A stretch of DNA of 56,731 nucleotides from Candidatus Omnitrophota bacterium. GTDB taxonomy: Bacteria; Omnitrophota; Gorgyraeia; Zapsychrales; Fredricksoniimonadaceae. How positions within the stretch are numbered: the stretch's first letter is position 1; every line of letters starts with the position of its first letter. Below the pieces are notes generated by a model that saw only the letters and a list, made by a program, of their open reading frames with translations, had not been told where the DNA came from and did not search any database. The position numbers were made by a program, and so were the translations under genes. Below, one piece after another: positions 7,464 through 53,447 of the stretch. Location of the stretch: assembly GCA_903836515.1 (NCBI GenBank), contig CAILQW010000041.1, forward strand, positions 1-56,731. The letters are read 5' to 3'.

Positions 7464-7484
7464 GGGCGGGTCTTAGACCCGCCC
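7464..7484. repeat. Palindromic element family B (GGGCGGGTC-TTA-GACCCGCCC)
   Basis: Perfect 9-bp arms; same arms at 12149 and 13696. Confidence 0.9.
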
Positions 7485-12148: not shown

Positions 12149-12169
12149 GGGCGGGTCCAAGACCCGCCC
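12149..12169. repeat. Palindromic element family B (GGGCGGGTC-CAA-GACCCGCCC)
   Basis: Perfect 9-bp arms. Confidence 0.9.
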
Positions 12170-13695: not shown

Positions 13696-13716
13696 GGGCG
13701 GGTCTGTGACCCGCCC
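13696..13716. repeat. Palindromic element family B (GGGCGGGTC-TGT-GACCCGCCC)
   Basis: Perfect 9-bp arms, immediately downstream of the tRNA. Confidence 0.9.
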
Positions 13717-27735: not shown

Positions 27736-29973
27736 ATGCGCCGGGTCATGGCATTATTTATCCTTCTGACGTTTATGACGCAGTGTTTGCTGCCGTCGGG
27801 CTATGCCCAGGAGCTGATGCCTGAGCCCGGGAAGATGGCCGCACTCAGCCCTGCCTTTCATCCGCCTGTCCTTACGGGTCTCAAGGTGGACATTAAAGAT
27901 CCGTTCCGGTTTGATTTTATTCTGGATCCAGGGAATGCCGGTCATGGTGTAGAGACGCAAAATCTTGCGTCTCTACGAAAAGATTCGGTTCACCTGATCA
28001 AATATTTCCTCGCCGCGCTTACCGTTCCCGAAAAAGACCTGTGGGTTAACTTGTCCCCGTATGAAAAAGACCGCATTGTGCCGGAAGCCTTCGGACAGAC
28101 GGAAATGGGGCGGGACCTTGTGGCGGAAGATTATCTCTTAAAGCAGATCACCTCAACCCTGATGTATCCCGAGGGGGAAACGGGGAAGCTGTTCTGGCAG
28201 AAGATCTACGCCCTTGCGGCGGAGAAATTCGGCAGCATTGATATCCCGGTGGATACGTTCAACAAGGTATGGATCGTGCCGGCCCAGGCTGTTGTTTATG
28301 AAAACGCGTCCACGCATAGCGCGTATGTGGTGAAGTCGACCCTGAAGGTCATGCTGGATTCAGATTATGTTGCGCAAAACGCCGCTGTAGAGACGCAAAA
28401 TCTTGCGTCTCTACATCACGATGCGACAGCCCGACAGGAACTCGCCAAACAAGTCATCCGCGACGTCATCATCCCCGTCCTTGAAAAAGAAGTGAACGAA
28501 GGCAGGAATTTCGCCCCCTTGCGTCAGGTTTACAATGCGCTGATCCTGGCCACGTGGTACAAGAAGAAGGTCAAAGACAGCCTGTTGTCCCGGGTGTATG
28601 TTGACCGCAAAAAGATAGCGGGTGTCAATATCGACGATCCGCAGGAAGCGGAGAAGATCTGGGGCCGGTATGTGGCGGCCTTCAAGAAAGGCGCCTATAA
28701 CTATATCCGGGAGGAGTACGATCCCCTCACACGGGAGACGATCCCGCGGAAGTATTTCGCGGGCGGGTTCGGGTTTAAGGATATGGGAAAGCAGCTTGAT
28801 ACAGTCCATAAGCTTGATGCGGCGGAGCTTTCCGGCAGGCAGCAGAAAGTCAGTGTGCAGATTGCGCCAACAGTCGAGAACCCCGCGTTGAATGATCCGC
28901 AGACAGCCCTGCGCCAGATCGGAGCACGTGCGGCGGATACGTGGCGTATTTTTCAACATGAATCCGGCCCTTTGATGAATAATGTACTCCTCCAAAGCTT
29001 AGACGTGGAAGAATCGCTTGGTGCGACAACAATAGATGGCTTTGCTCAAGATTGGGATAGCCTATGGTGGACTGCATTAGTCAATGGGTTGATTAAGCCT
29101 TTGGGTGACCAGCTGACCGGCGAATCTGATTATGTGCAGAAAGGTCAGATTTTCCTGGCATTTCAGAAAGATTGTTTACTGAACATTGATAAGCTTGTGT
29201 GTTTATTAGATCAAGACAAGCAACGTTTTTTAACGGTTGTAAAAGCGTTACAGGTGTTAAGGACCTATTTTGATCGTTTGTTCGATGATAATCTGAAACT
29301 GGAGCGGATGAATATAGTAACGCTGTTAGCTGAAGTGCCCCGTAGTTTTGAACCGTCTTTTGTAGACGGGATAGGGATTTATTCGCCGTCGGGATCCGAG
29401 GAGATATGGATCGTCGCAGATCCATTACGATTACGGGAAGTTTTTCTTAATTTGTTTAAAAACGCTGTGGAGGCGCTGGAGCCAAGGGCCCGGGAAGAAA
29501 AAATAACGATCGATGCCCGTTTATCTCCGGATGCTAAAGCTGTTGTTGTGTGCATCTCTGATACAGGTAAAGGCATGTCGTTGAAGCAGTTGCAATTTAT
29601 TTGGGCGGAGGGGTATACGTCGGGCAAGAAAAATGGCCACGGCATTGGGACGTATGTTGCCAAGAAATTGGTCGAGGCGCACGGCGGTACGATCGCGGTT
29701 GAAAGCAAGCCGGACCAGGGGACCATGTTCACCGTGACCCTGCCGGTATCAGGCCCTGCCACAGGCGATTCCCAGGACCCCGGGACCGGCGGTATTGACC
29801 TGACATCCGCGCCGGGGAACCTTGAGGCACAGGGTGATGGGGCCGGGGTTGCCTTTAACTTTGACCCGGCCCAGGTCGCACGGTTTGAATCAGCGTCCGG
29901 GTTTGTGCCGGTCATCATGGCTGTTGAGCCCGACGTGAACCTGGCGGCCTTCCTTGGGCTTCCGGGATCTTAA
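27736..29973 (+). CDS. Modular family member 1: shared N-terminal domain + histidine-kinase-like HATPase + shared C-terminal GGID module
   Basis: Signal-like N-terminus; TVPEKDLWVNLSPYEKDRI...FNKVWIVPAQAVVYE...LKVMLDSDYV; FLNLFKNAVEAL, VVVCISDTGKGMS, GHGIGTYVAKKLVEAHGGTI; GGIDLTSAPG...FNFDPAQVARFESASGFVPVI. Confidence 0.85.
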   Translation: MRRVMALFILLTFMTQCLLPSGYAQELMPEPGKMAALSPAFHPPVLTGLKVDIKDPFRFDFILDPGNAGHGVETQNLASLRKDSVHLIKYFLAALTVPEKDLWVNLSPYEKDRIVPEAFGQTEMGRDLVAEDYLLKQITSTLMYPEGETGKLFWQKIYALAAEKFGSIDIPVDTFNKVWIVPAQAVVYENASTHSAYVVKSTLKVMLDSDYVAQNAAVETQNLASLHHDATARQELAKQVIRDVIIPVLEKEVNEGRNFAPLRQVYNALILATWYKKKVKDSLLSRVYVDRKKIAGVNIDDPQEAEKIWGRYVAAFKKGAYNYIREEYDPLTRETIPRKYFAGGFGFKDMGKQLDTVHKLDAAELSGRQQKVSVQIAPTVENPALNDPQTALRQIGARAADTWRIFQHESGPLMNNVLLQSLDVEESLGATTIDGFAQDWDSLWWTALVNGLIKPLGDQLTGESDYVQKGQIFLAFQKDCLLNIDKLVCLLDQDKQRFLTVVKALQVLRTYFDRLFDDNLKLERMNIVTLLAEVPRSFEPSFVDGIGIYSPSGSEEIWIVADPLRLREVFLNLFKNAVEALEPRAREEKITIDARLSPDAKAVVVCISDTGKGMSLKQLQFIWAEGYTSGKKNGHGIGTYVAKKLVEAHGGTIAVESKPDQGTMFTVTLPVSGPATGDSQDPGTGGIDLTSAPGNLEAQGDGAGVAFNFDPAQVARFESASGFVPVIMAVEPDVNLAAFLGLPGS
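27949..27976. repeat. Palindromic element family A inside a CDS (GTAGAGACGCAA-AATC-TTGCGTCTCTAC)
   Basis: Perfect 12-bp arms; identical to 28387-28414; translated VETQNLASL. Confidence 0.97.
28387..28414. repeat. Palindromic element family A, second copy in the same CDS
   Basis: Identical 28 bp, same reading frame (VETQNLASL). Confidence 0.97.
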
Positions 29974-43504: not shown

Positions 43505-44839
43505 ATGTTTAAAAGAAATATAGAAATCCTTTTAAAGCAGTGGTCACAGCGCAAGGATCGCAAGGCGCTTGTATTGCGCGGGGCACGTCAGGTGGGAAAG
43601 ACCACGGCAGTACGGCATTTCGCGAAGAATTTTGATGTGTTTCTTTATTTCAATCTTGAGCTACCCGAGGAACGGGCTCTTTTTGATGGTGCGCAAAGTT
43701 TTGAGGATCTTGCGGGGGGTATGTTTTTGTTCAAGAATGTCGCGCGTTCCCAGGCATCTGTATTGATCTTTATTGATGAAATACAGTGTTCGCCCAAAGC
43801 TGTGGGGTGGATGCGCTATTTTCATGAATGTGCACCGCAGTGGCATGTGGTTGCCGCGGGGTCTTTGCTTGAGTCAGCCATGGATGTTGACCTGCATTTT
43901 CCAGTTGGCCGTGTGGAGTATCTTTTTTTGAAACCAGCGACGTTCAAGGAATTCCTGGGGGCTTGTCGGGAGGATCAATTGCTGGGGGTGTTGCAGGATA
44001 AAGGTATTCCTGATTATGCGCATGAGCGCCTGATGAAGCTGTTTATGCAATATACGCTGGTGGGCGGTATGCCTGAAGCGGTCAGTCAATATGCTCTGAC
44101 AAGGGATATTGTCCGTGTTAATGGTGTGTATGAGCGTCTCTTGCGGGCCTACATCGATGATGCCGCCAAATATGCTTCCAGGAAATCGCTGGTGATCCCG
44201 ATGCAGACGGCCATCGAAAATGCTTTCTTGCATGCCGGGCAACGTATTGTTTTCTCAAAGTTTGGAGATACACATTACGGTTCCCGTGAAATGGGAGAGG
44301 CTCTGCGCATGATCGAAAAAGCCATGCTGGCGACATTGATGTATCCGACCACAGCGGTAGGCCTGCCGATGGTTATTGACAGGAAAAAGTCTCCGCGCTT
44401 GCATGTGCTCGACACAGGTATGTTGAATTTCTTTGCCGGTGTCCAGAAAGAATTTATTCATGCGCATGATCTCAATGCCCTTTATCGCGGCGTTGTGGCC
44501 GAACATGTGGTGGGGCAGGAATTGGCCGCTATCCATACAGGGATTGCTGACAGGACAGCTTTTTGGGTGCGGGAGAAGAAACAGTCCAATGCCCAGGTTG
44601 ATTATGTGATCCAGCATGCGGGCAGGATCATTCCGATCGAGGTAAAATCCGGCGAATCCGGGCGATTGCGGTCACTGCATGCATTTATGGATGCCTGTTC
44701 TCATGACATGGCTGTGCGGATTTCCGGTGCGCCCTGGCGTGTTGATCAGGTAAAAACGATCGCCGGGAAGATGTACACATTAATGAATGTTCCTTTTTAT
44801 GCTGTGGCGGACATACACGCTTGTTTGGATCGCAGATAG
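43505..44839 (+). CDS. AAA ATPase with DUF4143-type C-terminus
   Basis: ALVLRGARQVGKTTAVRHFAKNFD, FIDEIQCSPKAVGWMRYFHE, AAGSLLE, C-terminal nuclease-like VDYVIQHAGRIIPIEVKSGESG. Confidence 0.9.
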   Translation: MFKRNIEILLKQWSQRKDRKALVLRGARQVGKTTAVRHFAKNFDVFLYFNLELPEERALFDGAQSFEDLAGGMFLFKNVARSQASVLIFIDEIQCSPKAVGWMRYFHECAPQWHVVAAGSLLESAMDVDLHFPVGRVEYLFLKPATFKEFLGACREDQLLGVLQDKGIPDYAHERLMKLFMQYTLVGGMPEAVSQYALTRDIVRVNGVYERLLRAYIDDAAKYASRKSLVIPMQTAIENAFLHAGQRIVFSKFGDTHYGSREMGEALRMIEKAMLATLMYPTTAVGLPMVIDRKKSPRLHVLDTGMLNFFAGVQKEFIHAHDLNALYRGVVAEHVVGQELAAIHTGIADRTAFWVREKKQSNAQVDYVIQHAGRIIPIEVKSGESGRLRSLHAFMDACSHDMAVRISGAPWRVDQVKTIAGKMYTLMNVPFYAVADIHACLDRR

Positions 44840-44890: not shown

Positions 44891-44929
44891 CAACCCCGGA
44901 GGTTGACAGCCGGTCAACCTCCGGGGTTG
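44891..44929. repeat. Perfect 17-bp inverted repeat
   Basis: CAACCCCGGAGGTTGAC-AGCCG-GTCAACCTCCGGGGTTG. Confidence 0.95.
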
Positions 44930-44943
44930 CTTCACGGTTAATT

Positions 44944-45393
44944 AATCCCCGAAAAAGCCACGGTTTACGAGCACCAGGACGCCGCCTTTGTGACCGAGGG
45001 CAAATTAAAGGTCATGCTGGAGAGTGATTATGTAGCCATGTCCCATCAGAAGGACATGGCGGAATCCTCGGCTCCTGCCGGGGACGTAGCCATGTCCCAT
45101 CAGAAGGACATGGCGGAATCCTCGGCTCCTGCCGGGGACGTAGCCATGTCCCATCTGGAAAATCGAATTCAGATCGATCTGAAACGGTAAAGGCGACCGG
45201 TGGTATCGATCTTAATCCATCCAAAATCGACATGGTTACAACAAACAGCGGCGAGGGAATCAAATTCAACATGGACCCCGCCACGCTGGCGCGCTTGCAA
45301 AACGCTTCCGGCGTCACGCCCGTCATTATCGGCATTCATTCATTGGATAGCCTGGCATCATTTATGGGTGTTCAGGCGTCTGGCGTGAAGTAG
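44944..45393 (+). pseudogene. Internally deleted, frameshifted modular family member (N-domain fragment joined to C-terminal module)
   Basis: IPEKATVYEHQDAAFVTEGKLKVMLESDYV..., then after a frame change TGGIDLNPSKIDMVTTNSGEGIKFNMDPATLARLQNASGVTPVIIGIHSLDSLASFMGVQASGVK*. Confidence 0.85.
45032..45156. repeat. 54-bp tandem repeat (2.3 units), each unit containing palindrome GCCATGTCC-N8-GGACATGGC
   Basis: Units 45032-45085 and 45086-45139 are identical; in frame VAMSHQKDMAESSAPAGD. Confidence 0.95.
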
Positions 45394-45459: not shown

Positions 45460-45741
45460 ATGATTCATTCATTTGACTGTGAAGACACTGAACAGCTTTT
45501 CCTGCGTGAATGCTCGCGCAGGATCCCATTTGATGTTCAGCGGACGGCATTGCGAAAACTTTGGATGCTTGATGCTGTCGTTGCATTGAATGCCCTGCGT
45601 ATACCGCCGGGTAACAGGCTTGAGGCTTTGTCCGGGAAGCGTGCCGGGCAATACAGCATACGGATCAATGATCAGTGGCGAATATGTTTTGTTTGGCGTG
45701 ATGGGCATGCGCATCATGTTGAGATTGTCGATTACCATTAA
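45460..45741 (+). CDS. HigB-type toxin
   Basis: LWMLDAVVALNALRIPPGNRLEALSGKRAGQYSIRINDQWRICFVWRDGHAHHVEIVDYH. Confidence 0.92.
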   Translation: MIHSFDCEDTEQLFLRECSRRIPFDVQRTALRKLWMLDAVVALNALRIPPGNRLEALSGKRAGQYSIRINDQWRICFVWRDGHAHHVEIVDYH

Positions 45742-45758: not shown

Positions 45759-46061
45759 ATGAAAAACAAGAAATTACAACCCATACACCCCGGTGAAGTC
45801 CTGATGGAAGATTTTCTGAAGCCCATGGGCATAAGTCAGTACCGTTTGGCGCAGGATATTCATGTTCCGCCCCGGCGTATTAATGAGATCGTTCATTGTG
45901 TCCGTGCGGTAACGGCCGATACGGCCTTACGCCTGGGGAAGTATTTTGGCATATCCGCACAGTTCTGGGTCAATCTTCAGTCGCATTATGATTTGGCTGT
46001 CCAGGAAGACTTGCTGGGCAAGCGGCTGGAGACAGAGGTTCATGTGTTCGCCGGTGCTTGA
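45759..46061 (+). CDS. HigA-type HTH antitoxin
   Basis: IHPGEVLMEDFLKPMGISQYRLAQDIHVPPRRINEIV...GISAQFWVNLQSHYDL. Confidence 0.95.
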   Translation: MKNKKLQPIHPGEVLMEDFLKPMGISQYRLAQDIHVPPRRINEIVHCVRAVTADTALRLGKYFGISAQFWVNLQSHYDLAVQEDLLGKRLETEVHVFAGA

Positions 46062-46205: not shown

Positions 46206-49200
46206 ATGACAGGTGTTCTTTATTGTCTTGGCTGGAAGTTTTTTCCTCGCGTTATCAGCACGATTATCCTGATCTTTTTTACCCTTAATACAGCTTTGCC
46301 TGTGGGATTAGCGCGGGCTAACGGCCTGGCGGCCTTGAATTTGCCGACGCCTGGCACGATGGTTCATCCTACCCCGGCATATTTGCCTCCTCTGGCTATC
46401 GGCATGGAGGTCCATCCTGACAATCCTTTTCAGTTCAGTTTTATCATCGATAAGGGCGATTCCGGCCTTGCATTTGACAGTGATGCGTTTCGTCAGGAAT
46501 CCGAGAAATTAGTCAAATATTTCATGGCGTCCCTGACTGTTCCTGAAAAAGAGCAGTGGGTGAACCTGTCGCCGTATGAAAAAAACCGCATCACCGGCGA
46601 AGGCCTTGGCCAGACGGACATGGGCCGCGATATGCTGGCGCAGGACTATATCCTCAAGCAGTTGTCGGCATCATTATTCTATCCGGAAGATGACCTGGGC
46701 CAGGCGTTCTGGCAGAGGGTTTACAGTCAGGCGAACGAACAGTTCGGGGTGACCGACCTGCCGCTGGATACCTTCAACAAGGTCTGGATCATGCCCGACA
46801 AGGCGGTTGTCTACGAGAAGGGCAACAGGGTCTTTGTGGTCGAACAGCACCTGAAAGTCATGCTCGAATCAGATTATAAATCGGCGCAGGTTGCCGGCGT
46901 GGGTAGGGACGGGTCTGTGACCCGTCCGGAAGATGAGCTCGCCAAGCAGGTCATGCGCGAAATCCTGATCCCCGCGATCGAAAAGGAAGTCAATGCCGGC
47001 AAAAATTTTGCCACTCTGCGCCAGATCTACAATTCCATGATCCTGGCTGTATGGTACAAGAAAACCCTGCGCGACAGCGTGCTCGGCAAGATCTATGTCG
47101 ATCGTAACAAGGCCGCAGGGATACAGGTCGATGATCCCGGCATCCGGCAGAAATTGTATGACCAGTATCTGGCTGCCTTCAGGGCCGGGGTTTATAACTA
47201 CATCAAAGATGAGGTTGATCCGCAGAGCCGCGCGTCGGTGCCCCGGAAATACGTGTCGGGCGGGGCCAAGGGATTGTCTGAAAAGAATTTGAGACAGGCA
47301 ACAACGGACGAAAAAAAGGATTGGGCGGGGCGTGTTGCGCAACGGTCTGATGCGAGCGCATCGGTGGCGGTGGATTTTGCGGAGGCGCCGAAGACGGATA
47401 ACTCCGAAAAAAGAAAATCTTCGGCGTCGGTGGCGAGGATGATGCCGGGGGCGAAGGCGATGACGAACGAGGCGACGGCGGCGGCCGTTGAGGCGCAGGC
47501 GCCTGGGACTGTGCTTTTTGTTCCGGTTGCGTCATTGCCCTCAGTAGCATTGACGGGTCAGCGGGATTACGGGGTTGGCGATCTTGGGCCGGAGGCGCGG
47601 GAACTCATCGAGTCGTTGGAAAGAGCAGGTGCCGGCTGGTTGCGCGAACCGTTGCTGGGGACGAATAATAACGGCGATCCTTATTATGGTGATGGGCTCT
47701 TTGGGCTCAACGGAAACTTACTTAGCCCGCAAGACATGGTCGCGCAAGGGTTTATAACCCAGGAACAACACGATACCATTGTTCCTAACGATATTCATTC
47801 TTTGCGGATTGCCTTTGATCGGCTGGGATACAAGGAACAACTGGCCCGTCAGGCGTATGCAAATTTTCTGAAGGCGCAAGAGACCGGGGTATGGCCGACG
47901 AACGGTCAGCCGGTGGCGCCTTTTCAGCAGGCGTTTGACACATTCGTCAAAGACAATACCGACGGCATTATCACGGTTGACGGCGTGGACATGCGTATGG
48001 ACTGGTTGCGATCGTATTCTTTGTTTCAGGTATTGAGCCGGAAGTATAGCCAATACGGCTGGCTGGGGCTCGTTGACCAGTATTCGGTTGAGCATGCGGG
48101 ACTGGAGGTTGAGGGTGTTACTGATATCTGGAAATATATTTCAGAAAAACTGATCTATCTGGATATGGCTGATTCCCTCAAGTTGAATGAAGTTCAGCTG
48201 AAAGTATCTTTGGATAAGTTGGGTGATTTGCAGTCCATCCTGGGAGATGAAAATTGGCAAAAGATCAGACCTGTATTTGAGCAGGCCTTGACGCGCTGGC
48301 CGGATGAACTGGCCAATATTAATGCCTCTGGTGTGAAAGCGTTTGAAGCGGAGAACCGTCAGGAGATCGGGTTCTTCCATTTCTTTCAGTTCCTTGTACG
48401 TCAGCAGGTGGAGGCCCTGAATACTTTTGCGCAAGAACATCATGTCCCGATTATCGAAGATTTGAATATATATCCGCGGTTTAACAGCGCGGATTGCTGG
48501 GGGAATCCGGATGTTTTCATTTATGATAAAGAAAAAAGGACGTTTTCGCTGCGTACCGGCGTACGCAATGACATCTTTGGGCATGTGCCGCCGGATTTGA
48601 GCAAGGCAGAAGGGATCAACTTTTATGTTAAACGATTCGTTTACGCCCTTCGTTTGGCGCCCGGGGCGCGGTTTCGGCTGGACTATGTCTTTGGGTATGC
48701 GGATCCTTTTGTTATCCCCAGGGACAAGCCGTCCCATGAGGGATATTTTTTAAGAGATGTTCACGATGGCCTGGATCCGTATCTTATCTTTGAAAGATTG
48801 GCGAAGATTTTCCCCGAGGTCGATCTGACGGATGTGTTTATAGCCGAGAATCTCGGCGAAGGCACACCCCGGACGGATGCGTTCTTCCGCAAGTTGCCTT
48901 TGCCAGGCATGAGTGTATTGCAGTACATGTCGCTGGAGCCTTCCTGGAGAAACCGGTTCAACGGTGATCCGTACCATCCGGCTAATTTGTTGCCCAGCCA
49001 AATGGCTTTTCTTGCCTCCCACGACAATCCGTCGACAAGGCTTTGGGACAGCAACCTTTCGACTAACAGTAAAAAGGTGCTGGCTCAGATTTTACGCGAG
49101 CTGGGGGTTACGGAGGAGTTGACAGAGGACAATATCGCGGAGATCATGAACAAGGTCTTGATGAACACCATGGCCAATACCACGGTGGTTAACTATGCGG

Positions 49201-50309
49201 ATGTCGTTGACGGTGAATCCGGGGCTGTGGGCATCAAAAGTCAGCATAATGTGCCGGGCACTTCGTTGAGCACGAATTGGTCTTACCGGCAGACAAGGGA
49301 TTATCTTACGGGTGTTGTGCCGCGTCTGAAGCAATGGATCAAGGATTCCCATCGTGCTCCGGACAACTGGATGGCGCGGCGTGAGCCGGTACGCAGGGCG
49401 TCGCCGGCCGCACAATTGGCGCTGGCTGTTTTGGCCCAGGGCAGTCCCCAGGAACAGCAAATGGCCCGTCTGCTGACGACCATGGTTGGTGAAGGCCGGG
49501 TGCGCAAGGCTGACCTGCGCCAGGGGATGTTGTCGGTGCTTTACCGACACAGCGACGGCGAGGATTATATCTTTCTATCGAGGAGTGATGCGGCACGTGA
49601 CGGAGGCTATCTTGCCGTCCCTCAGCAGGCACAAAGCCTGATCGCTGCCGTTGGGCAATTGATACCGGAAGAATCGGCTGCGGCGCCTGTAACACAGGAT
49701 ACTCTTGCCAGCCGTTTGGATAAGATTTTTTACGCTACGCATATCGATTACACGCGGGTTGTTCTTGATGAAGACATGAGAGAAAAGAAGATCATGCCTT
49801 TTCTCGGCGCGTTGGTTAATTTTAATTTATTGGAAAGTGAGCTGGATGCGGATACCGTGTCAAGGCTGAAGAAGGCCGGGTTGTGGGATTTCCGGGTTTA
49901 TTATACAGAGAAATACCGGCCCCTGTGGGATAGGCTTTTTGCTGAGAATCAAAGCCGTATGTCCCGTCCTGATCTTGTAGCGGGATTATTGAACGGCACG
50001 TTACCGCTGATCAACAAGGGCCAGCTGGCGGATCTGGTGGCGGCCATCAGTGAGGCGTTTGGTGACGAGATCGCCCCAAAGACTGGAAAGTCTGCTGGCG
50101 ATGCGTTGGCGGGCACGTCGGCCGACGCCGCGGCATCGCCCGGTGGTGTCACCCTTGATACAGCGACCATGGATTTCAGGATCTGCCGTGATAGCCACGG
50201 TGTGCCGTTACCGGTATCGGCCCAGCCTTGGGCGCAGTTGGACGTGAGCGGTTTTGAGCCGCGCATCGGGAAGATCGTGCCGGTGTCCGTGGCGGCGCTG
50301 GTGCGATAA
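46206..50309 (+). CDS. Modular family member 2: shared N-terminal domain + GH77 4-alpha-glucanotransferase + C-terminal module
   Basis: LPTPGTMVHPTPAYLPPLAIGMEVHPDNPFQFSF; SPYEKNRITGEGLGQTDMGRDMLAQDYILKQ; GVGDLGPEARELI; RFRLDYVFG, IAENLGEGTP, ASHDNPSTRLW; C-term GGVTLDTATMDF. Confidence 0.9.
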   Translation: MTGVLYCLGWKFFPRVISTIILIFFTLNTALPVGLARANGLAALNLPTPGTMVHPTPAYLPPLAIGMEVHPDNPFQFSFIIDKGDSGLAFDSDAFRQESEKLVKYFMASLTVPEKEQWVNLSPYEKNRITGEGLGQTDMGRDMLAQDYILKQLSASLFYPEDDLGQAFWQRVYSQANEQFGVTDLPLDTFNKVWIMPDKAVVYEKGNRVFVVEQHLKVMLESDYKSAQVAGVGRDGSVTRPEDELAKQVMREILIPAIEKEVNAGKNFATLRQIYNSMILAVWYKKTLRDSVLGKIYVDRNKAAGIQVDDPGIRQKLYDQYLAAFRAGVYNYIKDEVDPQSRASVPRKYVSGGAKGLSEKNLRQATTDEKKDWAGRVAQRSDASASVAVDFAEAPKTDNSEKRKSSASVARMMPGAKAMTNEATAAAVEAQAPGTVLFVPVASLPSVALTGQRDYGVGDLGPEARELIESLERAGAGWLREPLLGTNNNGDPYYGDGLFGLNGNLLSPQDMVAQGFITQEQHDTIVPNDIHSLRIAFDRLGYKEQLARQAYANFLKAQETGVWPTNGQPVAPFQQAFDTFVKDNTDGIITVDGVDMRMDWLRSYSLFQVLSRKYSQYGWLGLVDQYSVEHAGLEVEGVTDIWKYISEKLIYLDMADSLKLNEVQLKVSLDKLGDLQSILGDENWQKIRPVFEQALTRWPDELANINASGVKAFEAENRQEIGFFHFFQFLVRQQVEALNTFAQEHHVPIIEDLNIYPRFNSADCWGNPDVFIYDKEKRTFSLRTGVRNDIFGHVPPDLSKAEGINFYVKRFVYALRLAPGARFRLDYVFGYADPFVIPRDKPSHEGYFLRDVHDGLDPYLIFERLAKIFPEVDLTDVFIAENLGEGTPRTDAFFRKLPLPGMSVLQYMSLEPSWRNRFNGDPYHPANLLPSQMAFLASHDNPSTRLWDSNLSTNSKKVLAQILRELGVTEELTEDNIAEIMNKVLMNTMANTTVVNYADVVDGESGAVGIKSQHNVPGTSLSTNWSYRQTRDYLTGVVPRLKQWIKDSHRAPDNWMARREPVRRASPAAQLALAVLAQGSPQEQQMARLLTTMVGEGRVRKADLRQGMLSVLYRHSDGEDYIFLSRSDAARDGGYLAVPQQAQSLIAAVGQLIPEESAAAPVTQDTLASRLDKIFYATHIDYTRVVLDEDMREKKIMPFLGALVNFNLLESELDADTVSRLKKAGLWDFRVYYTEKYRPLWDRLFAENQSRMSRPDLVAGLLNGTLPLINKGQLADLVAAISEAFGDEIAPKTGKSAGDALAGTSADAAASPGGVTLDTATMDFRICRDSHGVPLPVSAQPWAQLDVSGFEPRIGKIVPVSVAALVR
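46907..46927. repeat. Family-B-like palindrome inside a CDS (GGACGGGTC-TGT-GACCCGTCC)
   Basis: Perfect 9-bp arms; same TGT loop as 13696; translated within GVGRDGSVTRPE. Confidence 0.9.
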
Positions 50310-50348: not shown

Positions 50349-53300
50349 GTGATGGTGCCTTTATTTCATCATAAATTTCCTTTCAAGGCCGTTTGTTCTT
50401 TACTGACGGCGGTCGTGTTTTTACTGACACCGATCTTGGCTGAGGCGCAGGCGTTGAGAGATCTTCCGTCGCCGGGCACCCTGGTTGTGACGGGTGGTGT
50501 CTATACGCCGGCGCTGGTCAAGGGACTGCGGATCGACCCGCAACAGCCGCGCAAGCTTTTGTTCATGCTCGACAAGGGGCAAACGCCGGAGGTTGACCTG
50601 CGGGAAAATGTCGAGCGGCAGGCGCGGTATTTCCTGACAGGCTTGACTGTTCCTGAAAAAGAATTCTGGGTTAATCTCTCTCCGTATGAATCCGACCGCA
50701 TTGTCACAAAAACCCTGGGGATGACCGAGCTGGGGCGCGATCTTTTGGCCCAGGATTATATCCTTAAACAGTTCACGGCATCGTTATTGCATCCTGACAG
50801 CGCCAGTGGCCGTGTGTTTTGGGCGCGGTTGCGCGCTCTTGCGGGCCCTGATGTGAATGCGGAGAAGTTGGCAAATGATTTTCACAAGGTGTGGATCGTT
50901 CCGGCGCGGGCGCGGGTTGTTGAGAAGGGCTTGAGCGGGGTGGTTGTTGAGGCGCGCCTCAAGGTCATGCTTGAACAGGATTATCTGGCGCGCGCGCAGG
51001 CAGAGGGAAGTCATGCCCTGAATGCGGGGCAGGAGGCTGTTGTTCAGGTGATGCGCGAGGTCATTGTGCCCGTGATCGAGCGGGAGGTTAATGAAGGCGC
51101 CCGCTTTGCCCGGTTACGGCAGATATTCCAGGCCCTGATCCTGGCCAAATGGTACCGTCAGAAAAAAGGGGCCGCGCCCTGGCGCCGGTCTTATCTGGAC
51201 AAGGCAAGGCTCGCGGGCGTTGCTATCGCCGACAAGGCGGAACCGCGCAAGATTTATGATACGTATGTGGACGCGTATAAGAAAGGTGCTGTCAATCTCA
51301 TCCGCGAAGAGAAGGATGCCGTGTCCGGCGAACTTTTGCCGCGCAAGTATTTTTCCGGCGGGGTAAATGATTTTGGCATGTTAACACCGGGTGTTTTTTC
51401 GGTGGTGTCAGGTCCATTGCCGGCAGTTCCCGACGTGGCTGTTGTTGATCTGGCGGCGGAAGTGGCGCCGGTCAAGCTTACGCACGCCCCCGTTATATAT
51501 TTGTGGCATGCCGGGCCTACGAAGTGTTTTGACAAAATCACGGAGGAATACCTTCAAGGGTTGGCAGACAAGGGGATCAATGAGTTGTGGACCATGGGCA
51601 TATGGGAGCGATCCAAGTTTAGCCGATATTATCAGGGATGGGCCGCTAAGATCTTTGGGCAAAAGCAGCGCCTGGCCTCCGCGTATAGCCTCGATGATTA
51701 TACGGTGGCGGCAAGCCTGGGTGGCGAGGCGGCTTTTGAAGGGCTTGTCAAACGTGCGGCCAAGTATGGGATAAAAGTGTGTGTTGATCTTGTGACCAAT
51801 CATGCCGGCGTCATGGGCAAATTGATGAAGGAACATCCGGAGCGGTTCATACGGGTTGAAGAAGGCAGAATACCAGAAGCGGAGATCGCCAATTTGAGCA
51901 GTTATTTCAGGGGGATCCGGAAGAATCTTCAGGAGAGTGAATTTGTCAGGTTTTTCTTTCGGCATAAAGATAAAAAGGGAAAATCCTGGATTTATGCGCA
52001 TCAAAAGGATCCTTATTATGCGGCATGGCTGGACACGGTGGCTTTTGACTTTTCCAAGCCGGAAACTCAGGCATATATTAAGGCGTTAATTGATCGTATT
52101 ATGCAGTTGACGAACGGTGGAGGTATTCGTTTTGACATGTTCCATCTGGCTTTGGCAGGCCGATTCAATAATAGTTGGGGGGAATTAAAGCATGGCGAAA
52201 TGCATGATGATTTTTGGAGGGATCTTTTTGGAGAAATGAAAAAAAAGTATCCGGATTCTGTTTTTATTGCAGAAATGTATGAGAATGAAGAATATGCTTT
52301 GAAGCTGGGGATTGATTTTGTTTATGCCAAACATCTTTCTTTGGAGCATTTTGTATCTTTGCGTCGTAGTTCCGGAATGTTTGGTTCGTTGTTGTCTGAG
52401 GGGGCTGATTTTTACATGCAGGGTATTATAAAGTTTCTCGAAAATCATGATGATATTCGTGGGAAAAGGACCATTGATGAGATACGTGAAACAACGGCTT
52501 TCAGCTGGCTGGCTGTTACGGAGGCTGCGCCATTGAGGGGAGGTAGTATTGTGAGGTCTTTGATCGAGAAAGGATATGTAAGAGAAAACGATCAAGATCT
52601 TTATCTTAATGCTGACATCCCTGAGATTGAGGATTTTTTGAAGGAGCATTTTAATGATTATCCAGATGATATTAAGGCATTGCTGAGTGAGCGCGTATTA
52701 AAAAGTTTTATAGCACGTACCAAGGCCGCCAATGCGGCGCTGATGGCCTATTTCTCCGGGGGCACGCTGATCAATGAGGGGTTTGAAACGGGGCGTCATG
52801 CCGAGACCAACGGTAAGCCCGATGCACTGAATCAACCCGATGCAGAAGATACGTGGCGGGAATACCCTGAACTCACATCATTTTATAAGAATTTATTTTC
52901 TTTGATGGCAGATAAATTATGGTGTAACGGAACAATGCGGCCGGCTTTGGTTGGTGATCAGCGTGATCTTCCCGAAGGGGTTTTGGTTGATCAGCGCCGC
53001 ATTCAGAATGAGGACGGTTCTTATGAGGTTGGCCTTGTTGTCGTGAATCACAGCGGTACGGAAAAGACGCTTCCCTGGATCAATCAGCATTATCAGTGGG
53101 ATTATCTTACCGAGGACGACAAGGATAATATGGAATTTGTCGATATTCTTGATCCGCAGGCGGCTCCTGCCGCTTTCAGGGACATGGTTGGCAGGGGGAC
53201 ATGGGTGCTCCAGCCGTGGGAAAGGCATGTGTACAGGCTTCGCAGGAAAGGAACGACGGATCAGGCAAGCCTTGTCGACAAGAACTATGGCGGTATTGAT

Positions 53301-53447
53301 GCCAGCGGTATGGACGTGGCCGTTGACCGGAGCCCGGCGGCATCCGCAGAGGAAGTTGTCGGCAATGAAGATCTCCTTTTGCCTTCGTTTGCCGGTTTCA
53401 AGCCAGTCCTCTTGACGATCACACCTGCGTCATCGGATCCGCGATGA
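50349..53447 (+). CDS. Modular family member 3: shared N-terminal domain + GH13 alpha-amylase-family domain + C-terminal module
   Basis: LPSPGTLVVTGGVYTPALVKGLRIDPQQP; SPYESDRIVTKTLGMTELGRDLLAQDYILKQ; GH13 regions DLVTNHAG, GIRFDMFH, FIAEMYE, FLENHDD; C-term GGIDASGMDV. Confidence 0.9.
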   Translation: MMVPLFHHKFPFKAVCSLLTAVVFLLTPILAEAQALRDLPSPGTLVVTGGVYTPALVKGLRIDPQQPRKLLFMLDKGQTPEVDLRENVERQARYFLTGLTVPEKEFWVNLSPYESDRIVTKTLGMTELGRDLLAQDYILKQFTASLLHPDSASGRVFWARLRALAGPDVNAEKLANDFHKVWIVPARARVVEKGLSGVVVEARLKVMLEQDYLARAQAEGSHALNAGQEAVVQVMREVIVPVIEREVNEGARFARLRQIFQALILAKWYRQKKGAAPWRRSYLDKARLAGVAIADKAEPRKIYDTYVDAYKKGAVNLIREEKDAVSGELLPRKYFSGGVNDFGMLTPGVFSVVSGPLPAVPDVAVVDLAAEVAPVKLTHAPVIYLWHAGPTKCFDKITEEYLQGLADKGINELWTMGIWERSKFSRYYQGWAAKIFGQKQRLASAYSLDDYTVAASLGGEAAFEGLVKRAAKYGIKVCVDLVTNHAGVMGKLMKEHPERFIRVEEGRIPEAEIANLSSYFRGIRKNLQESEFVRFFFRHKDKKGKSWIYAHQKDPYYAAWLDTVAFDFSKPETQAYIKALIDRIMQLTNGGGIRFDMFHLALAGRFNNSWGELKHGEMHDDFWRDLFGEMKKKYPDSVFIAEMYENEEYALKLGIDFVYAKHLSLEHFVSLRRSSGMFGSLLSEGADFYMQGIIKFLENHDDIRGKRTIDEIRETTAFSWLAVTEAAPLRGGSIVRSLIEKGYVRENDQDLYLNADIPEIEDFLKEHFNDYPDDIKALLSERVLKSFIARTKAANAALMAYFSGGTLINEGFETGRHAETNGKPDALNQPDAEDTWREYPELTSFYKNLFSLMADKLWCNGTMRPALVGDQRDLPEGVLVDQRRIQNEDGSYEVGLVVVNHSGTEKTLPWINQHYQWDYLTEDDKDNMEFVDILDPQAAPAAFRDMVGRGTWVLQPWERHVYRLRRKGTTDQASLVDKNYGGIDASGMDVAVDRSPAASAEEVVGNEDLLLPSFAGFKPVLLTITPASSDPR

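Follow-up and report, generated by a model that had tools for sequence, protein, structure and literature searches.

A loop of a secreted protein domain with tens of paralogous copies per genome in Omnitrophota, a little-known bacterial phylum, holds short palindromic repeats of several sequence families, read in frame. One way to understand this, favored here at a probability of about 70%, is that the loop is permissive: it is fed by REP-type and other dispersed repeats, and the inserts spread among paralogs by duplication and recombination. The window, meaning the whole stretch of DNA analyzed (56,731 nucleotides), is contig C41 of a 67-contig, 2.02-Mb MAG (G000, the ‘own’ genome below), in which several palindrome carriers lie close to contig ends; the comparison genomes are Omnitrophota MAGs. 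A first-pass annotation of the window had recorded three palindromes in the linker after the motif LKVMLxSDY (site 2), in a kinase gene, a GH77 gene and a pseudogene; their positions (Table 1) agree with it. That annotation took them for independent insertions of unrelated palindromes at one codon position, at a permissive and possibly targeted site; ‘permissive’ is the word that the present reading keeps.

Table 1. Features of the window, with the RAYT-type gene of another contig of the same genome (last line).
Feature	Position	Strand	Basis or remark
Family b palindrome, intergenic	7464..7484		
Family b palindrome, gene 5′ edge	12149..12169		
Family b palindrome, intergenic	13696..13716		
Paralog: secreted domain + C-terminal HATPase_c (histidine-kinase-like)	27736..29973	+	ORF, translation, PF02518 E 1.7e-22
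Family a palindrome GTAGAGACGCAAAATCTTGCGTCTCTAC, site 1 of kinase gene, peptide VETQNLASL	27949..27976	+	pattern search
Family a palindrome, site 2 of kinase gene, peptide VETQNLASL	28387..28414	+	pattern search
Family f palindrome, 39 bp, CAACCCCGGAGGTTGAC-N5-GTCAACCTCCGGGGTTG, adjoining pseudogene	44891..44929	+	
Decayed paralog: N-domain fragment (LIPEKATVYEHQDAAFVTEGKLKVMLESDY + site-2 repeats), stop after	44942..45190	+	domain profile E 8.9e-8
Family c 54-bp unit, copy 1 (palindrome 45035-45060), peptide VAMSHQKDMAESSAPAGD	45032..45085	+	
Family c 54-bp unit, copy 2 (palindrome 45089-45114)	45086..45139	+	then 15-nt third partial copy
Probable remnant of the C-terminal tail conserved in the paralog family (GGIDLNPSK...FNMDPATLARLQNASGVTPVII)	45195..45393	+	read by eye against P0001 tail
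Paralog: secreted domain + GH77 (4-alpha-glucanotransferase)	46206..50309	+	ORF, PF02446 E 9.3e-49
Family b element GTAG + GGACGGGTC-TGT-GACCCGTCC, site 2 of GH77 gene, peptide RDGSVTRP	46903..46927 (palindrome 46907-46927)	+	
Paralog: secreted domain + alpha-amylase (GH13); palindrome-free site-2 linker	50349..53447	+	ORF, domain search
RAYT-type transposase gene	L084:6640-7230 (C51:18639-19229)		NF047646 E 2e-13

The N-terminal domain (LTVPEKDLWVNLSPYEKDRI...) is secreted and uncharacterized, and is joined to kinase-type ATPase, GH77 and GH13 domains. A profile built from the window's three domains detects about 35 paralogs in the own genome; its match to the kinase paralog, at E 9.7e-194, is to a sequence of its own training set. 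The genus has 30-58 copies per genome, 58 being the maximum among relatives. No Pfam family matched the domain, and a PDB fold search gave no match below E 0.2. The AlphaFold2 model of the domain from the GH77 paralog has a confident fold (pLDDT 79.5, pTM 0.80); in this model site 2 falls between two helices at pLDDT < 50, and is predicted to be a disordered loop. Sites 1 and 3, two further loops that accept inserts, likewise lie between secondary-structure elements in the model. Open frames of hundreds of residues run on through the inserts, all of which keep the reading frame, as had been noticed at first pass along with the lack of a palindrome in the GH13 linker.

The decayed paralog and the tail remnant behind it are in different frames. 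Between this pseudogene and the GH77 gene there is a HigB-like toxin/HTH antitoxin pair (45460-45741 and 45759-46061), with an AAA_14-DUF4143 ATPase gene (43505-44839) upstream of the pair.

Each palindrome belongs to a multi-copy repeat family, which rules out a set of unrelated one-offs. The families do differ in sequence, as the first-pass annotation held, but three of them (a, b and d) share one layout: a hairpin some 20-40 bp long that carries GTAG at one end (a, GTAGAGACGC...GCGTCTCTAC; b, GTAGGGGCGGGTC-N3-GACCCGCCC; d, GTAGGGGCGGACCTTGTGTCCGCCC). By sequence these three look like GTAG-type REP elements, and all have copies outside genes, in both orientations. Family b occupies 19 places in the genome, 16 of them intergenic or at ORF edges and three in site-2 linkers; three site-2 linkers hold family d as inverted pairs, and seven of the 12 family d copies are outside, at an ORF start or where no coding signal surrounds them. 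Family a, allowing up to three mismatches, is found at 23 places: 11 lie within loops of the paralogs, one immediately 5′ of a paralog, and 11 in a single 4-kb stretch of contig C51. The kinase gene bears two of these, identical 28-mers in sites 1 and 2; the site-1 copy was missed at first pass, as was the family f palindrome beside the pseudogene, which recurs just once in the genome, within site 1 of paralog C19. Family e lacks an exact inverted repeat; with one mismatch it forms the hairpin GGGGACATGTTG-N10-CAACGTGTCCCC. Folding of single-stranded DNA into hairpins gives z values of -7.0 for a, -3.8 for b, -5.1 for c and -8.9 for f. Site 2 of one locus in a relative (L272, G005:C31:96427-97521) has an apparent nested insertion, RRGG/VPAYRQAG/VTLP, in which another repeat sits within a family-b palindrome.

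Family c is a different case. All nine of its own-genome copies are in site 2, as it is in sister species wherever the context was read; lacking dispersed copies outside the gene family, it is not classed as a REP. It begins with GTAG, letters that may be native codons. Its arms covary across species (GCCATGTCC/GGACATGGC and GCCCTGTCC/GGACAGGGC): in an ATG/CAT pair, A-T becomes C-G, and the change is non-synonymous on both sides. Complementary changes in both arms (GCCCTGTCC/GGACAGGGC) are seen in L141 and G005:C19:29067. Covariation that alters the amino acid on each side suggests that the hairpin itself is maintained or regenerated; family c would thus be a palindromic element, one whose mobility its copies, seen only in these loops, do not attest.

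A candidate mover for family a came from reading the cluster on C51. Amid the palindromes of the 4-kb stretch is a RAYT-like gene with a family-a copy in frame inside it. The match to NF047646 reaches 50.4 bits, below the curated cut-off of 80, and falls into two stretches parted by the inserted palindrome; the shortfall is put down to this splitting of the ORF. HxH (PNHVHGI) and the tyrosine of a C-terminal YIEDNP are visible in the translation. A Pfam search of the gene gave no match; a search with PF01797 (Y1_Tnp) left it undetected and returned two partial matches, both at contig ends. The gene holds its own REP in the RDAKFCVST frame, and its neighbors are two FGE-sulfatase-like paralogs and ten more family-a palindromes. 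An association with a RAYT gene is thus indicated for family a only; none was found for families b or d. As the sole RAYT gene found is interrupted, its present-day activity is doubtful. A search of five same-genus genomes did not detect family a, which therefore looks recent in the own genome.

The concentration of palindromes in these loops can be counted. Inverted repeats were required to be perfect, with an arm of at least 9 and a loop of at most 12; the final counts cover 33 own paralogs and 130 non-duplicate domains from other Omnitrophota, ten duplicate same-genus loci having been taken out. Site 2 of the own paralogs holds 15 inverted repeats in 2.9 kb, as against two in 24.6 kb of core and a codon-shuffled expectation of 0.1; expressed per kilobase, the values are 5.09 for site 2, 3.15 for site 1 and 0.08 for core. 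Site 2 of the foreign domains holds 13 in 11.9 kb, and their core five in 101 kb (per kilobase: site 2, 1.09; site 3, 0.25; core, 0.05). Core values equal the codon-shuffled ones. Fisher tests against core, in which related genes count as separate, give p values of 3e-13 (own site 2), 3e-6 (own site 1) and 1e-9 (foreign site 2). At least one inverted repeat is held by 11 of 33 own site-2 loops and by 10 of 130 others.

Families a-d were picked for their presence in the linker; the gene-wide, masked-DNA, hydrophilic-window and final inverted-repeat tests were designed to remove that bias. A 457-kb sample of the own genome, with gene calls from a simple model of our own, has 26 inverted repeats within genes, compared with 24.7 after codon shuffling, and five of the 26 are in the domain family; 429 other genes show no excess. 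Of the hydrophilic windows of other genes, 1-2% contain an inverted repeat; among equally hydrophilic 34-aa windows the figure is 5 of 506 (1.0%). The proposal that any hydrophilic linker would do is thus unsupported in the own genome. When 113 domains were matched against 0.9 Mb of domain-masked DNA, the fraction of bases covered was 9.9% at site 2, 5.0% at site 1, 2.6% at site 3 and 0.25% in the core. The comparison that the first-pass annotation had proposed, of this linker with shuffled controls and other linkers, accordingly excludes chance, and its hotspot is borne out for the domain family: it recurs in other genomes, is lacking in the other genes of the own genome, and takes in several palindromic repeat families.

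Loops of the relatives also contain peptides that look like translated copies of further dispersed repeats (VIPAKAGIQ, SVIASAAKQSF, VILSEAKNL, SPLWGGNGRG, GADLVSAR, RGGSVTRP and VGADLVSAHERADTSSAPT); matching to masked DNA confirms several as non-domain repeats. Such repeats are widespread elsewhere. In L150, L166, L171 and L182 the same repeat peptide occurs in two or three loops of one protein, VIASAAKQSF being found in sites 1, 2 and 3 of L150.

In the permissive-loop reading, site 2 would be a disordered surface loop of an Omnitrophota-specific secreted domain with tens of paralogs, into which short hairpin repeats land; inserts would be retained because in-frame, stop-free additions there cause little harm. 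The sources would be GTAG-type REPs (a, b and d), with RAYT-type single-strand transposases as their probable movers, together with other dispersed repeats. The loop stretch bearing an element would then reach other paralogs through gene duplication and recombination over short tracts, possibly with tandem duplication; the outcome would be sister genes with different palindromes at the same loop. We infer both the role of RAYT as mover and tolerance, not targeting, as the ground for the loop preference.

Since at least four distinct families are found in the loop, several entries into it are indicated, with later spread through duplication and recombination. In a tree of 32 own paralogs built from the core only, the minimum number of changes relative to the number of site-2 carriers is 4/5 for family a, 3/3 for b, 5/5 for c and 3/3 for d; deep branches are weak, so that old insertions followed by losses may account for some ‘lateral’ patterns. 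Paralog C53_8341 places in the C40/C39_13429/C53_581 clade, yet its c+a loop matches that of C13, at 92% DNA identity with flanking segments at 47-82%. The spread of each family over the paralogs is due, at least in part, to whole loop cassettes moving laterally. ‘Independent insertion’ thus stands for the entry of at least four families, but not for every filled loop: beside cassette transfer, five genes share the flanks (VAQNAG...LHHDATAQQELAKQ) of their site-2 family a copy, family b starts exactly 25 nt past GATTAT in all three of its site-2 genes, and the orthologous GH77 linker of sister genome G003 (L315; RDGSVPRP) has the family b element with one arm mutated, so that this insertion predates the species split. 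A scheme with a single entry of each family, into an ancestral paralog, and only duplication and loss afterwards, a matter of copying without any hotspot, would draw on these conserved a flanks, on the shared GH77 element, and on the family d pair common to many G004/G005 paralogs. It is highly improbable: at least four to six sequence-unrelated families entered the same loop in the genus, with more in other genera; the tree asks for three to five changes per family; and family a went undetected in the five congeners searched. Another scheme has the transposase drawn by a sequence motif, or by the structure of the DNA, where the loop is encoded. One loop does concentrate the inserts, and the constant 25 nt of family b might be read as a target, but shared ancestry or conversion explains that position equally well, and the families begin at different offsets past the DY codons (c at about 0, d about 13, a about 18, b about 25 nt). 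Sites 1 and 3 are entered by site-2 families too, and the only trait they share with it is that of being loops; copies outside the domain family are in intergenic DNA. With different kinds of element at different nucleotides, and entry into other loops as well, a DNA target site is improbable; neither ‘same codon position’ as a target nor ‘targeted’ is supported. Inspection of the site-2 alignments by eye gave no convincing target-site duplication, and the native linkers are too divergent to define a clean empty site.

That the hairpins are native to the linker, chance or RNA-structure features of its codons and not inserted DNA, is barely credible. The notion is most plausible for family c, restricted to these loops and reduced in paralog C11 to its first 15 nt (GTAGCCATGTCCCAA), with the rest missing; against it, the arms of c covary between species, which is not expected by chance, and families a, b and d also lie outside genes in either orientation. 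As to the permissive-loop reading, tolerance alone leaves unexplained why comparable hydrophilic linkers in the own genome are spared. Our guess is that the many loop-exchanging paralogs make the difference; the main rival is selection for loop diversity. Selection would then favor varying loops, for surface recognition or contact with phage or host, with palindromes as favored raw material and paralog recombination to shuffle them. Such adaptive diversification, though unlikely on balance, fits the sparing of other hydrophilic windows, the 30-58 paralogs per genome, the several repeat types within one genome with nested or tandem repeats, and the extreme divergence of loop 2 between the otherwise near-identical C39_38722 and C3_36259 (51% identity, in flanks mostly at 87-98%). 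Repeat-free loops vary as well, however, and decayed repeats suggest drift.

These inserts are a new form of a phenomenon with known relatives, intragenic REPs and Rickettsia palindromic elements (RPEs): here the same loops of one expanded family are filled, in many genomes of a phylum. Intragenic GTAG/CGTC REPs are GTAG-tagged hairpins of 20-40 bp, single or in dimers, some in frame in genes, for which flexible linkers or loops have already been proposed as neutral places (Di Nocera et al. 2013, PMC3733652). The GTAG hairpin layout and the in-frame intragenic copies are common to families a, b and d; the earlier REPs are strewn over unrelated genes, many of them for replication or repair, whereas ours recur in the same loops of a single family of paralogs, across species and repeat families. 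RPEs (Ogata 2000, 2002), as summarized in PMC3733652 and PMC10969869, comprise several palindromic families, in frame and presumably translated. The likeness is one of mode only (in frame, several families), and the present inserts are not classed as RPEs, which in those summaries reach about 150 bp and occupy many unrelated genes; ours are mostly 25-60 bp, in one domain family. TnpA-REP requires GTAG, and group-3 REPtrons have clustered REPs (PMC8266576). The C51 locus resembles such REPtrons in having a RAYT-family gene flanked by perfect GTAG palindromes; it differs in that the RAYT ORF is interrupted by an in-frame REP, and that REPs beyond the locus are confined to one gene family.

Earlier reports of in-frame palindromic repeats in bacterial genes, RPEs and intragenic REPs alike, were of scattered oddities. 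Here a genome offers tens of paralogs, loops with and without inserts stand next to each other, and closely related species allow dating. The contribution of selfish repeats to protein sequence, and the places where they are tolerated, thereby become countable; the case also points to paralog recombination as the route by which inserts spread. It is conceivable, though quite unlikely, that the loops are an evolved receptacle, in which REP-type palindromes and recombination among tens of paralogs would form a diversity-generating system for surface loops; if so, mobile repeats would be a regular supplier of new protein sequence. The Omnitrophota case suggests how selfish repeats can turn into protein sequence.
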